Of a stretch of DNA of 64,000 nucleotides, positions 8,966 through 61,197 are shown piece by piece. Each line of letters starts with the position of its first letter. The stretch's first letter is position 1. Position numbers and translations under genes: made by a program. The notes under the pieces were generated by a model. It was not told where the DNA came from. It did no database searches and saw only the letters and a list, made by a program, of their open reading frames with translations. Source of the DNA: Prochlorococcus marinus str. GP2 (GTDB taxonomy: Bacteria; Cyanobacteriota; Cyanobacteriia; PCC-6307; Cyanobiaceae); the NCBI RefSeq assembly GCF_000759885.1, contig NZ_JNAH01000007.1, positions 62,001-126,000 on the forward strand, written 5' to 3'.

Positions 8966-9988
8966 GTGCAAAAACTTAAAAAATTTATTTATTCTGCTTT
9001 AGCTTGTACTTTTCTAGTGAATGTTTATTTACCTGCTAATTCAACAGAAAAAGAAGTTAGAGTTTATTCAGGCAGACATTACAATACAGATAGAAATGTT
9101 TATAAAAAATTTGCAGAGGAAACTGGCATTAAAGTTCGATTAATTGAGGCAGCTGGGATCTCATTATTAGAGAGATTAAAAAGAGAAGGTAGAAACTCCC
9201 AAGCTGACTTAATTTTGCTAGTTGATGCAGCAAGAATAACTAACGCCGCAAAAGCTGGTTTATTACAGAGCATTAATTCAACTAGTCTGGAAGATGATGT
9301 CCCTAATGGACTAAAAGATCCAAGAAAGCAATGGTACGCTTTAACAAGAAGAGTAAGAGTTATGGTGGCCAATCCAAAAGTTGTGGATGTGAGTAAAATA
9401 AAAGATTATACCGATTTGGCGGACCCTTCTTTAAAAGGAAAAGTATGTTTAAGGAATAGAAAAAGTCCTTATAATCAATCTTTAGTATCTAATCAAATAA
9501 TTAATAAAGGTACAGAGTCTACAAAAAATTGGCTTAATGGGATGATTTCAAATGTTTCACAACCTTTTTTCCCAGGTGATATTTCAATTGTTAGAGCAGT
9601 TTCTAAAAGAAAATGTGGTATTGGAATTGTTAATCACTACTATGTAGCACGAATGTTAGCAGGCGTTAATGGCAGAAGAGATGCTTTATATGCAAAAAAA
9701 ACAACAGTACTTACTCCTAACCCCGCGCATGTAAATATTAGTGCTGGAGGAATTGCAAAATATGCAGCAAATAAAGATAACGCAATTAAGTTACTTGAAT
9801 TCTTAGCCTCTCCGGTAGGAAGTACAGGTTTAGCTGCTCCAACTTTTGAACATCCTTTGAGGGAAGTTAATCAGAATGAAATAGTAAAAAACTTTGGAGA
9901 TTTTATGCCTGATAATGTGTCTATGGAAGAACTTGGAGAAAAGAATTCACTTGCAATTAAAATGATGAAAGACGCAGGTTGGGAATAA
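8966..9988 (+). CDS. futA: Iron(III) ABC transporter substrate-binding protein FutA/IdiA
   Basis: A 340-residue periplasmic ferric-iron binding protein. Residues 1-27 are a signal peptide (KKFIYSALACTFLVNVYLPANS). The mature start VRVYSGRHYNTDRNVYKKFAEETGIKVRLIEA is diagnostic of the FutA/IdiA/FbpA family; the tyrosine-rich region VNHYYVARMLAG holds the paired iron-ligand tyrosines. It starts at GTG 8966, the only start before the signal peptide. Permease and ATPase genes are not adjacent, as is common in Prochlorococcus. Expression is known to rise under iron limitation in this family. Confidence 0.94.
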   Translation: MQKLKKFIYSALACTFLVNVYLPANSTEKEVRVYSGRHYNTDRNVYKKFAEETGIKVRLIEAAGISLLERLKREGRNSQADLILLVDAARITNAAKAGLLQSINSTSLEDDVPNGLKDPRKQWYALTRRVRVMVANPKVVDVSKIKDYTDLADPSLKGKVCLRNRKSPYNQSLVSNQIINKGTESTKNWLNGMISNVSQPFFPGDISIVRAVSKRKCGIGIVNHYYVARMLAGVNGRRDALYAKKTTVLTPNPAHVNISAGGIAKYAANKDNAIKLLEFLASPVGSTGLAAPTFEHPLREVNQNEIVKNFGDFMPDNVSMEELGEKNSLAIKMMKDAGWE

Positions 9989-10050
9989 ACCTAATCATTA
10001 GATAAAGTTAGGATTGTAAATATTAATTTTTTATATAGTTGTTGAATTTT

Positions 10051-10135
10051 GGAGAGGTGGCTGAGTGGTCGAAAGCGAACGACTCGAAATCGTTTAATAG
10101 GAAACTATTCGTGGGTTCGAATCCCACCCTCTCCG
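10051..10135 (+). tRNA. tRNA-Ser (anticodon CGA)
   Basis: An 85-base class II tRNA. The acceptor arm pairs GGAGAGG (10051-10057) with CCTCTCC (10128-10134), with discriminator G. The anticodon stem AACGA/TCGTT encloses the loop CTCGAAA, giving anticodon CGA at 10085-10087. A long variable arm and the T-loop GGTTCGAATCC follow, as in serine tRNAs. CCA is not encoded. A degenerate copy of its 3' end lies at 11120-11147. Confidence 0.97.
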
Positions 10136-10144
10136 TATTAATAA

Positions 10145-10984
10145 TTAATTCCTTATGTACCAGGAATCAAATTGAGTTTGCTGAGGGAAAAATCTTTTAT
10201 AGTTGTTTTCCTTAAATAAATTATCTAGATTTTTTTGTGCAGATGTGAAATTATGTTCCACAGTTACAATTTTAGGACCATATTTTTCAAAGTTAAATTT
10301 TGACAGAATTAATAGCTCACTGCCCTCTGTGTCAACAGACATATAGTCTATTTTTTCACCGTTAAAGTGTTTAATGAAAACATCATTTAGTGAAATTGTC
10401 GGAACTTTTACTGTAAAGCCTTCTTCATTTCTTGCTTTTGTATTGCCTGGCATTGATTCAATGTCTGACTCTTTAAATTCGTTGATAGTTGAAAAAACCC
10501 CTTTGTTTGAAACAAAAAAGTCTATCATTTCTCCACTTTCTGAGTATATACATTCATTTATTATTTTTGTTCTTGGACGATTTTCTTTTAAGCTTTTTTT
10601 CCATTGAGGACTAGGTTCTGCAAGGACACCTTCCCATTCAAAGTTTTTTTCAAGTAAATAGCTATTTGAAAGCTCTTTGCCATTTGTTGCTCCAAATTCT
10701 AAAAATCTGCCCTTTCTCTTATTCCCTAATTTAAAAAGTACAAAGAGATCTTGAAATAATTGTGAATGGGATATTTCCCTATTTTTAAATATGAAACTAT
10801 AAAAATCTAATAACTCTTGATTATACTTATTTAATGATTTAGTTAAATCATAGAATTTGGGAATGAATATTTGATTTTTTAATGCATTTTGCAAATTAAT
10901 AATATATTTCAGAGTATTTTCATCAATGAAAGATGATTTCCCATCATTAAAGTTTATTTTGAATTTTTTAGCTTTTTTATCCAT
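10145..10984 (-). CDS. FkbM-family methyltransferase
   Basis: About 279 residues, a class I methyltransferase of the FkbM family. SAM-binding motif I appears as RFLEFGATNGKELSNSYLLEK, followed by WEGVLAEPSPQW, and the family hallmark IDYMSVDTEGSELLILSKF then IVTVEHNF lies near the C-terminus. FkbM enzymes O-methylate sugars or polyketides; in picocyanobacteria they sit mostly in surface-polysaccharide or variable islands. I chose ATG at 10984 over the TTG eight codons upstream. The gene lies between tRNA-Ser and a degenerate tRNA-Ser 3' copy, which suggests acquisition as a small island; it is convergent to the tRNA. Confidence 0.85.
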   Translation of the reverse strand: MDKKAKKFKINFNDGKSSFIDENTLKYIINLQNALKNQIFIPKFYDLTKSLNKYNQELLDFYSFIFKNREISHSQLFQDLFVLFKLGNKRKGRFLEFGATNGKELSNSYLLEKNFEWEGVLAEPSPQWKKSLKENRPRTKIINECIYSESGEMIDFFVSNKGVFSTINEFKESDIESMPGNTKARNEEGFTVKVPTISLNDVFIKHFNGEKIDYMSVDTEGSELLILSKFNFEKYGPKIVTVEHNFTSAQKNLDNLFKENNYKRFFPQQTQFDSWYIRN

Positions 10985-11119
10985 TTCAACTCTATTAATA
11001 AATAACAATAATGATATACCAACCTTATAGGTGAAAAGTTTTTTATGAAGTATGTTGTGGGATTATCAAATATGAGTTGATTTTCTTTCATTAATGTTCC
11101 CATAATTGATTATTTGTTC

Positions 11120-11147
11120 TGAGTTCTACTTCTAAACTCTCCGTATT
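11120..11147 (+). repeat. Degenerate direct repeat of the tRNA-Ser 3' end
   Basis: This 28-base stretch matches 10112-10139 (T arm, acceptor end and first flanking bases of tRNA-Ser) at 21 of 28 positions without gaps. The last 11 bases, CTCTCCGTATT, are identical. Such partial tRNA copies mark the far end of tRNA-targeted integrations. The surrounding 10985-11368 gap otherwise shows no gene. Confidence 0.6.
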
Positions 11148-11368
11148 TATATAAAGGCAAATTTAGTAAAATATAGTTTAGTCCAGCTTCTAAAATAATT
11201 GGTATGGAAAAGGAAAATCAGTAAATTGCCTAAGTCAGGCAAACATAAAACAAATCACAACTAATATTAAGAGTCTCAGAAGTAATATTATAGTATTAGA
11301 GAAATTTTTGAATACTAATATTTTGATTGGTTTTCTATTTTTCTTGCGATATTATTTTAAAATCTGAA

Positions 11369-12094
11369 ATGAAAAATAAAGGGGAAGTCCTTACTCAAAA
11401 TAGAATTGGATTTGAGAACATAAATGTTGCATTGGGTGTTCTTTATAGAGAGTGGTATGAACTTATAGCGCAACAACTTTCTAATGAACAGGGCATGAAC
11501 CTTGAATTAGGTTGCGGAGCAAGCTTTATAGACGAAATAATTAAAAATATTAAAAAATCAGATATTTTTTTAAACTCAAATACTGATTTAAAAATAGATG
11601 CAATGGAGGTAGGAATAAGATTTGAGAATGAAATATCGAACTTAATTTTAATTAATGTTTTTCATCACATAAGTAATCCTGAATTATTTTTAAGGTCAGC
11701 AGAAAAATCTCTTGTTTCAGGCGGAAGAATAATTATGGTTGAACCTAGCAATAATATTTGGAGTAGATTGATCTATAAATTAGTTGGACACGAAAAGTTT
11801 GATACAGAACAAAAAACTTGGAAGTTTGAATCAAATGATCCTTTATTAGATTCAAATCAAGCACTTTCATGGATAATTTTTAAAAGAGACTTTAAAAAAT
11901 TTAAAAAATTATTTCCTAAATTTTCTCTTCTCAAAAAGAAAAGTATGATGCCTTTTTCTTATTTATTAAGTGGAGGACATACTTATAATTCGAAAGTTGG
12001 TAAAGTGTTTATCAAAATAATTAGAAAAATAGAACAAATTCTTTTTGACAAGAAATTTGGAATTTTTGACCTTATATGCATAGAAAAGCACTGA
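11369..12094 (+). CDS. Class I SAM-dependent methyltransferase
   Basis: About 241 residues. Motif I is the clear NLELGCGASFIDEIIK, the motif IV/V region is SNLILINVFHHISNPELFLRSAEKSLVSGGRIIMVEPS, as in type 11 methyltransferases acting on small molecules or lipids. I start it at ATG 11369 (MKNKGEVLTQ); the open frame extends 14 codons upstream without a better signal. Its 3' end overlaps the next gene by 19 bases in another frame, implying cotranslation. It lies just beyond the tRNA-Ser remnant, so it may belong to the same variable region. Substrate unknown. Confidence 0.8.
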   Translation: MKNKGEVLTQNRIGFENINVALGVLYREWYELIAQQLSNEQGMNLELGCGASFIDEIIKNIKKSDIFLNSNTDLKIDAMEVGIRFENEISNLILINVFHHISNPELFLRSAEKSLVSGGRIIMVEPSNNIWSRLIYKLVGHEKFDTEQKTWKFESNDPLLDSNQALSWIIFKRDFKKFKKLFPKFSLLKKKSMMPFSYLLSGGHTYNSKVGKVFIKIIRKIEQILFDKKFGIFDLICIEKH

Positions 12095-12627
12095 ATTTGA
12101 AATCGATAATCTTTAAGACCCTTTTTTTGTATTTAGTTATTTATTTTGTTGCACTTATATTTAGATATAGTTACGATTTTGATTCTTTATTAAATAATTT
12201 TCAATATAAATATTTAATATTTTTGAATGTGATCTCTATATCTTTAGGTTTACCTTTATCAATTATTTTTGACATTATATTAATTAAGTTTTTTGGTTTA
12301 GATTATGTTTTCTTTTTTTCTCCTGTATTAACATTTTTAGGAGTAGTTCAAGTTTTGATTTTAAGAAAAATTAAGTTTAAGATTTCTAGGAGCATATTAT
12401 TTTTTAAAAATCCTAAAAAAAATAGCCTTTATAAATTTTTTAAAAAAGTTACCTTTAAACCGCTTTATATCTTAATCATAAGAACTTTCCCGGTTTTACC
12501 TTTCTTCTTAGGTAGTTATTTTATTGCCTCTTCTAAAAGTAAAAAAAGGATCATATTAATAAATTCATTTTTGGGTTCATTTTTTTATTATCTTTTTTTG
12601 TTTTTTATAATTTGGAGTGCTAACTAA
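12076..12627 (+). CDS. Integral membrane protein, possibly VTT/DedA-like
   Basis: A 183-residue, strongly hydrophobic protein with about five transmembrane segments (roughly residues 12-30, 46-66, 72-93, 130-150, 160-180). The arrangement of a small-residue loop GLPLSIIFDIIL and later IIRTFPVLPFFLGSYFIAS, with an R-x-x-P-x-x-P-like element, recalls the VTT domain of DedA/TVP38 membrane proteins, known as lipid scramblases or transporters. That match is weak. It overlaps the upstream methyltransferase by 19 bases, so the two probably act in one pathway, perhaps on a membrane lipid. Confidence 0.65.
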   Translation: MHRKALNLKSIIFKTLFLYLVIYFVALIFRYSYDFDSLLNNFQYKYLIFLNVISISLGLPLSIIFDIILIKFFGLDYVFFFSPVLTFLGVVQVLILRKIKFKISRSILFFKNPKKNSLYKFFKKVTFKPLYILIIRTFPVLPFFLGSYFIASSKSKKRIILINSFLGSFFYYLFLFFIIWSAN

Positions 12628-12860: not shown

Positions 12861-13112
12861 TTAGTTTTCCCAAAAGGGATCTGTGGTTAAAGACACGCTT
12901 AAAATAGATTTGTTTTTACTTTTAATATCATTTATACAAGCCCTTATCGTCTCGCCATTAACATCTATTTCACAGGCACCACAACTTCCTGTTAAACAGC
13001 CAGAAGGAATTTCTAAACCTGCTTTTTTTGCAGTAGAGAACCAATCATCTCCCTCAGAAGCGTATGTCTCGTTATTATTTGGCCATCTGATCTTAATTTT
13101 TATTTTTTTCAA
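12861..13112 (-). CDS. Small 2Fe-2S ferredoxin
   Basis: An 83-residue soluble protein with a plant-type ferredoxin fold. The cluster ligands are C39, C44, C47 and C59 (GCLTGSCGAC...RACI). C-x4-C-x2-C is standard, but the last spacer is only 11 residues instead of about 29 in photosynthetic ferredoxin, closer to the spacing in SdhB-like iron-sulfur domains. The start ATG overlaps the cobQ stop by 4 bases (ATGA), so it is translated from the cobQ message. An electron-donor role linked to cobalamin chemistry is possible but not shown. Confidence 0.85.
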   Translation of the reverse strand: MKKIKIKIRWPNNNETYASEGDDWFSTAKKAGLEIPSGCLTGSCGACEIDVNGETIRACINDIKSKNKSILSVSLTTDPFWEN

Positions 13113-61014: not shown

Positions 61015-61197
61015 TCAGTCACAGTAAATTAAACAATTTTGATTTGTTGGATGTTCTTTACATTCTTTCTCCCAAAAGTTTTGAAACTCAGGAGTAAATT
61101 TCTCAAGTTCTTTTGGAGTCTCATTAAGATTTAGCCCTGCATAGTTAAACGCAGTTAAGTATCTTTGGAGAACATTGAATTGATTGAATAGTTTCAT
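61015..61197 (-). CDS. Small hypothetical protein
   Basis: A 60-residue protein, MKLFNQFNVLQRYLTAFNY..., with three cysteines near the end (KECKEHPTNQNCLIYCD). AGGAGG is 6 bases before the ATG. Function unknown; leader resembles that of 60828 (MKL start, same SD spacing). Confidence 0.65.
   Translation of the reverse strand: MKLFNQFNVLQRYLTAFNYAGLNLNETPKELEKFTPEFQNFWEKECKEHPTNQNCLIYCD

Follow-up and report, generated by a model that had tools for sequence, protein, structure and literature searches.

The FkbM methyltransferase gene that lies behind a serine tRNA gene of Prochlorococcus marinus str. GP2 probably belongs to a worn cassette, one of an array of small cassettes that use site-specific recombination to insert at the 3' end of tRNA-Ser(CGA). 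The gene is located in a stretch of 64,000 nucleotides from this genome (G000), referred to here as the window, and the tRNA gene beside it, flanked by futA on one side and ferredoxin or cobQ on the other, is an integration hot spot in Prochlorococcus. In the mechanism we propose, a tyrosine recombinase of the kinds encoded in three other genomes (G142, G224 and G220) would recombine the attachment (att) site of a cassette with the final 7-11 bases of the tRNA gene. The incoming cassette would rebuild the tRNA and leave a copy of the tRNA 3' end at its own far end, and older cassettes would presumably be displaced downstream. Many cassettes would amount to little besides recognised ends and zero to two genes, and would depend for their movement on an integrase acting in trans. 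The window would accordingly contain two units: the FkbM unit, which would have kept its right end and att copy and lost its left end, and a second unit carrying a methyltransferase/membrane-protein gene pair (Table 1).

Table 1. Features of the tRNA-Ser(CGA) site in the window.
Feature	Position	Strand	Basis or remark
futA-like solute-binding protein gene	8966..9988	+	Pfam SBP matches; constant upstream neighbour of the tRNA
tRNA-Ser (anticodon CGA), integration target	10050..10136	+	ARAGORN; last 7-11 bases are the attachment core
First unit: FkbM cargo and right end	10137..11143	+	Left-end region absent
FkbM methyltransferase-domain gene, cargo	10145..11008	-	PF05050, E 1.6e-18
Right end of RE-alpha class, including att copy	11053..11143	+	G050 match; ungapped profile
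Attachment core CTCTCCG of the distal copy	11137..11143	+	Sequence; core enrichment in inserts
Left end of second unit	11144..11265	+	Alignment with G129 DNA after the tRNA
Methyltransferase-like gene, probable ATG at 11369	11327..12094	+	Named from sequence look; no Pfam match
Membrane-protein-like gene, second cargo gene	12076..12627	+	No Pfam match
2Fe-2S ferredoxin gene	12861..13112	-	Pfam Fer2; first constant gene downstream of the insert

The site was followed across the genus with window positions 10000-11330 as the query, which gave matches in 198 of 200 genomes; among the matches listed, coverage comprised the tRNA and its near flanks only, except in G000 itself and in one FkbM match in G086. 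The loci were collapsed to 109 distinct tRNA loci, later 115, and many of the genomes compared are incomplete single-cell or metagenome assemblies. The immediate upstream neighbour of the tRNA is futA in 107 of the 109 loci. In 93 of them the insert is closed by ferredoxin or cobQ, at lengths between 36 bp and 16.8 kb; in the larger set this closure was seen in 98 of 115 loci, the others not being closed within the DNA examined. The original prediction had read the repeat as a trace of tRNA-targeted integration and expected some genomes to lack the insert or to carry other cargo, and this is what the alignment of the locus in many genomes yielded. The site is empty in G004 (L076), where ferredoxin follows 36 bp after the tRNA, and in other genomes it is occupied by different cargo together with tRNA 3' copies. 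In the window, the distance from the tRNA end to ferredoxin is 2.7 kb, with the intact tRNA at one end of the insert and a tRNA 3' copy at the other, and the 16 closest named relatives of the window FutA are all Prochlorococcus records (79-89% identity). A literature search that had the original tycheposon study outside its scope returned no paper recognised as dealing with the Prochlorococcus tRNA-Ser(CGA) site, and we do not claim that the site is undescribed. Elsewhere in the window, a 60-aa ORF (61015-61197, minus strand) has a similar counterpart at L090 (14336-14518) and represents a small protein family recurrent in islands; the 394-nt stretch around it has a match at E ≤ 1e-4 in 59 of the other 114 tRNA-Ser inserts.

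The inserts contain strongly oriented copies of the attachment sequence. CACCCTCTCCG occurs exactly 49 times on the tRNA strand of the inserts (456 kb, 109 loci) and 0 times on the opposite strand, while occurrences with one mismatch number 14 and 2, respectively; 1.4 Mb of flanks contain no exact occurrence on either strand and four with one mismatch. Shuffled 11-mers give 0.02 exact occurrences on average, with a maximum of 2. The strict att definition, which allows CACCCTCTCCG a single mismatch, does not capture the class to which the window copy belongs and was therefore widened to CTCTCCG. This core appears in the 115 loci 72 times on the tRNA strand of the inserts, 7 times on the opposite strand and 14 times in the flanks on both strands. 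Copies are present in 50 of 115 loci by the strict definition and in 54 by CTCTCCG, and the corresponding module counts are 70 and 80. The 70 modules delimited by att copies span 58 bp to 9.3 kb, with a median of 1.56 kb. Of the 80 recognised by the wider definition, 27 have no ORF of at least 80 aa, 30 have one, 14 have two and 9 have three or more. Among the genes they carry are restriction-modification genes of types I, III and IIG, one for a polysaccharide lyase and many unknown ones. Some 6-mer is present in at least three copies in 19 of the 70 right ends, against 0.8 expected from shuffles, and repeated 6-mers were found in 5 of 59 control stretches located 300 bp further left, which suggests that the repeated 6-mers in right ends may be integrase arm sites.

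Within the window, the 28-base repeat described in the original prediction is real, with 21 of 28 identities between 10112-10139 and 11120-11147 and CTCTCCGTATT shared exactly by both copies. One FkbM gene does lie between the copies, as had been proposed, but the repeat encloses just the first of two units, since the attachment copy ends at base 11143, not 11147, and the following bases start the next unit. Positions 11137-11265 align with a stretch of G129 DNA that starts in the final bases of the tRNA (70%, E 1.9e-7); because that DNA directly follows an intact tRNA, 11143 is taken as a unit boundary, and because the DNA after 11143 is tRNA-proximal DNA elsewhere, two units appear to be stacked in the window. 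A weaker match (70% over 77 bp, E 8e-4) links the left end of the second unit to that of the integrase-coding G220 element. The gene pair of the second unit forms an att-bounded module in G106 and G127, which are 96% alike there against 80% at futA, and G106 has a stop within the frame of the first gene. This first gene was found at 80% identity or more in ten genomes including G000, seven of them with the gene behind tRNA-Ser(CGA); the other three are two short contig ends and a tmRNA stretch in G018, where no tRNA was found. In that genome (L433), the methyltransferase/membrane-protein pair lies near the tmRNA gene, and its second gene is apparently broken. That no integrase remains in the segment agrees with a Pfam scan of eight window proteins, including the ORFs at 10145-11008, 11327-12094 and 12076-12627, among which no integrase was found.

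The FkbM gene is far from being fixed at this place in all strains. At E ≤ 1e-3, relatives occur in just 18 of the 266 genus genomes, G000 included, and close relatives are present solely in G086 (69%) and G228 (65%). The G086 gene is located elsewhere, with no tRNA in the 17 kb examined. In G228 the gene lies behind the same tRNA within a larger glycan cluster, whose neighbouring genes look glycosyltransferase-like and epimerase-like from their sequences, and no att copy was recognised there. G024 has a different short gene where the window has FkbM, along with the same second unit (87%) and an att remnant homologous to the window copy (70%, E 3e-7). The FkbM unit (10137-11143) was not found as a unit in any other genome, and a search of viral contigs gave no relative of the window FkbM protein.

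This distribution bears on a different history, in which FkbM would be the leftover of a larger glycan cluster at the same tRNA and a deletion would have joined it to the real right end of an older cassette. We consider this unlikely, while acknowledging that several observations fit it: the 65% relative in G228 stands behind the same tRNA among glycan-type genes, a different gene occupies this place in G024, and the first unit has no left end, the FkbM stop codon being about 8 bases from the tRNA. However, units in which the att core and the start of a gene are no more than about 30 bases apart do exist (L087 at 227; tRNA-proximal relative), so that a short left side is no proof of deletion. 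According to the cassette reading, which we prefer, the FkbM gene itself would have arrived as a cassette, and the window segment looks like a modest, worn example of a cassette stack. Counting against this reading are the absence of the FkbM unit from the other genomes, its missing left end, the setting of the FkbM relatives in G228 and G086, the lower scores of the window right end in the gapped and the shortened profiles, and two module pairs that are less alike than futA.

The wider set of modules indicates how such stacks may grow and spread. Among the 70 internal left ends, 47 belong to families, 17 in number, that are found directly after an intact tRNA elsewhere; since internal left ends thus represent tRNA-proximal families, new units seem to enter beside the tRNA and to push older ones downstream. 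Sixteen pairs of related modules were compared, the G142/G224 integrase element being one of them. In 14 pairs the modules resemble each other more closely than do the futA regions of their hosts, and in 8 of those 14 the modules are 93-99.8% alike against 70-92% for the futA region. Pairs of a 1919-bp module reach 99.6-99.8% (futA region 82-92%), and two integrase-less pairs of 257 bp and 215 bp reach 97.3% and 93.5%, each against 70% for the futA region. The trend is reversed in L074/L136 (77% against 91% for futA) and L158/L341 (79% against 85%). In all 16 pairs, the 90 bp beyond the module gave no alignment. Judging from these identities, integrase-less modules, some of only 215-257 bp, have evidently moved between divergent hosts.

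Homologous recombination could in principle exchange such DNA, with the tRNA as an anchor and the repeats as passive marks. The tRNA and the flanking core genes are conserved and would supply the homology, and L083 and L141 differ over the initial 150 bp of the module, as they would after recombination inside modules. We nevertheless regard this explanation as quite improbable, given that in the four module groups examined identity climbs at the tRNA end and vanishes at the att copy; in the 1919-bp trio, for example, identical columns make up 0.72 of the 400 preceding the tRNA, 0.996 of the module itself and 0.11 of those beyond the att copy. Moreover, homology on the right-hand side amounts to 7-11 bases, the att copies are strongly oriented, and integrase elements occupy the same site.

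Site-specific insertion of cassettes, by comparison, is consistent with the right end of the FkbM unit. The 91 bp at 11053-11143 match a right end in G050 (78%, E 1.3e-14) and constitute the sole match in G000. The genus-wide search located this end class, termed RE-alpha, in 23 of 266 genomes, at 24 places in total; tRNA-Ser(CGA) lies approximately 0.1-10.4 kb upstream on the same strand at 23 of these places, the window included, and the remaining one is in G264 on an 8.7-kb contig without a tRNA. Aligned RE-alpha members mostly end in TAGACTCTCCG or near variants, the window having TAAACTCTCCG, so the copy that the original prediction called a degenerate tRNA 3' end is better described as belonging, nearly intact, to an attachment-end class whose core is TAGACTCTCCG. 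An ungapped profile of 63 other right ends ranked the window place first of 127782 (25.7 bits; next -1.8, the tRNA excepted). The place was still first after removal of the 11-base core (19.0 against 14.0) and fifth after removal of the last 25 columns. With a gapped profile (nhmmer), the window right end was not significant (E 4.5); the case for it rests on the ungapped profile and the RE-alpha BLAST matches, not on nhmmer. At one of the 23 places, L425 (G099), the tRNA-Ser(CGA) stands in another neighbourhood, adjoined by a tRNA-Ala; neither futA nor ferredoxin was found in the 11 kb examined there.

As for the repeat itself, the next best match of the 28-mer in the 64-kb window, on either strand, has 17 of 28 identities; when the 2 kb behind the tRNA was dinucleotide-shuffled 500 times, the best 28-mer match did not exceed 19 of 28, and the shared 11-mer was present in 0 of 2000 shuffles. 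That the 21/28 similarity arose by chance is so improbable as to be negligible: although a query of the whole tRNA plus 24 bases had its observed local score reached in 3 of 500 shuffles, so that the raw repeat alone is not overwhelming, the 28-mer and 11-mer shuffle nulls argue against chance, as does the recurrence of the 91 bp at the copy at 23 other places, 22 of them shown behind the same tRNA.

Integrase genes are rare in the modules, having been detected by tblastn with two integrase types in 3 of 70. A Pfam scan of 60 of the 72 module ORF families found no integrase family matched by two or more members; since the integrase of G220 was in the scanned set, the other 59 ORF families had no integrase match at E ≤ 0.001. 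The elements of G142 (5016 bp) and G224 (5476 bp) at tRNA-Ser(CGA) encode a tyrosine integrase and a serine recombinase, the G142 element matching PF00589, PF13356 and PF00239, and both have a small ORF that we take to resemble AlpA. G220 has a 9331-bp element with a different integrase at the same tRNA. Its left end matches those of L087, L126, L118 and L081 at 82-85% and its right end matches the same four modules at 75-79%; these modules, of 227, 5032, 2010 and 1814 bp, respectively, thus share both ends with the G220 element, and no integrase was found in them. The G142 right end matches five integrase-less modules, and in L129 only, part of the left end matches as well. Regarding mobilisation by a partner integrase, what is observed is this sharing of ends with integrase elements and the spread of integrase-less modules.

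Among the matches listed, PF00589 occurs in at least 229 of 266 genomes, many of these matches being an open frame near 389 aa, a figure that is not a census. Relatives of the G142 integrase are present in 22 of 266 genomes. Among 13 integrase regions, tRNA-Ser(CGA) is present in those of G142, G224 and G220, tRNA-Ser(GCT) in two and tRNA-Asn(GTT) in two, and six have no tRNA. G142-related integrases are found in regions holding tRNA-Ser(GCT) or tRNA-Asn(GTT) at L326 (G034), L332 (G165), L329 (G082) and L335 (G180), so that other tRNAs may have similar arrays. Two integrase-element proteins, a 226-aa protein of L324 (15660-16337) and a 209-aa protein of L333 (7434-8060), had no Pfam match, and the former had no PHROGs match either; from the look of their sequences, they are possibly replication initiators. 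In viral contigs, the G142 integrase gave one weak relative (22%), and two module-end patterns gave no matches, the search for circular forms there being confined to short patterns. A 14-base att pattern was discarded as unspecific for its too many matches, and the single viral-contig match of a 17-base pattern, whose surrounding ORFs look like those of a G+C-rich tailed phage, was taken as chance.

The evidence from the sequences covers the site, its variability, the oriented att copies, the exchange of whole modules and the ends held in common with integrase elements. Beyond this, we lean slightly towards a broader proposal, in which the whole genus would share a pool of non-autonomous cassettes dedicated to a single tRNA gene. 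Most would have zero to two genes, and the smallest, of about 215-280 bp, would be roughly two integrase-binding ends. Rare tyrosine integrases of the P4 type would mobilise them in trans, and they would be stacked in an integron-like manner, with several end classes serving different integrases; the window would hold a two-cassette relic of this pool. Prochlorococcus cells differ greatly in gene content, and the routes by which genes enter such small genomes are partly known. If the proposal is true, part of this gene turnover would be accounted for by a tRNA site at which gene-sized cassettes without an integrase accumulate. It also raises the testable question of whether one integrase moves many unlinked cassettes, gene-free ones included, and defined cassette ends offer a handle for finding cassettes in metagenomes.

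The comparisons with known systems draw on parts of the cited sources. Tycheposons of Prochlorococcus, attributed to Hackl et al. 2023, reportedly have a deep-branching tyrosine recombinase as their hallmark, and the window segment resembles them in genus, in integration at a tRNA 3' end and in island cargo. In the part of the source consulted, seven tRNA genes are reported for tycheposons and their size is given as 4-200 kb (PMC10872708), unlike the window units, which measure 1-2.7 kb in all and in which no recombinase was found. The suggestion of a tycheposon-type element therefore holds as far as integration at a tRNA is concerned, while membership is not established for a 2.7-kb segment in which no recombinase was found; small integrase-less cassettes are the nearer likeness. 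In Prochlorococcus MIT9313, a variable island with five tRNA-segment copies lies beside an intact tRNA-Met; this is a different tRNA, and the excerpted account discusses it with the attachment site of a siphovirus (P-SS2) and relic transposases (PMC2784084).

The ssrA islands of Dehalococcoides also stand in tandem behind one RNA gene, and the available part of their description presents them as possible cis-mobilizable elements that grow by accretion, each ended by a 20-bp copy of the RNA gene 3' end, with 15 of 31 lacking an integration module and with a conserved motif before the repeat that is unmatched in the RNA gene (PMC3146451). The FkbM unit resembles a cis-mobilizable element in being att-bounded, in tandem and without an integrase, yet only one of its ends is complete. 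As far as that description extends, the Dehalococcoides islands have a serine-type CcrB-like integrase, a tmRNA target and reductase cargo (PMC3146451), whereas in the Prochlorococcus array the target is a tRNA, the integrases are of the tyrosine type, and units as small as 215 bp lack an 80-aa ORF. In other streamlined aquatic bacteria, tRNA 3' repeats likewise mark cassettes of variable size, according to the portions compared: Methylopumilus fGI-2 at tRNA-Lys is an additive island with cassettes of 330 bp to 42 kb (PMC10872708), and Actinomarinales carry cassettes at tRNAs (PMC7771536). At tRNA-Ser(CGA), too, repeated insertion extends the island, at another tRNA and in another phylum. Compared with an integron, the sites here are tRNA 3' cores. 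Relative to the fGI-2 and Actinomarinales descriptions as consulted, the Prochlorococcus array adds gene-free units and ends held in common with integrase elements, and modules with few or no genes whose left and right ends both match those of an integrase-coding element at a single tRNA go beyond the known-system descriptions compared here.
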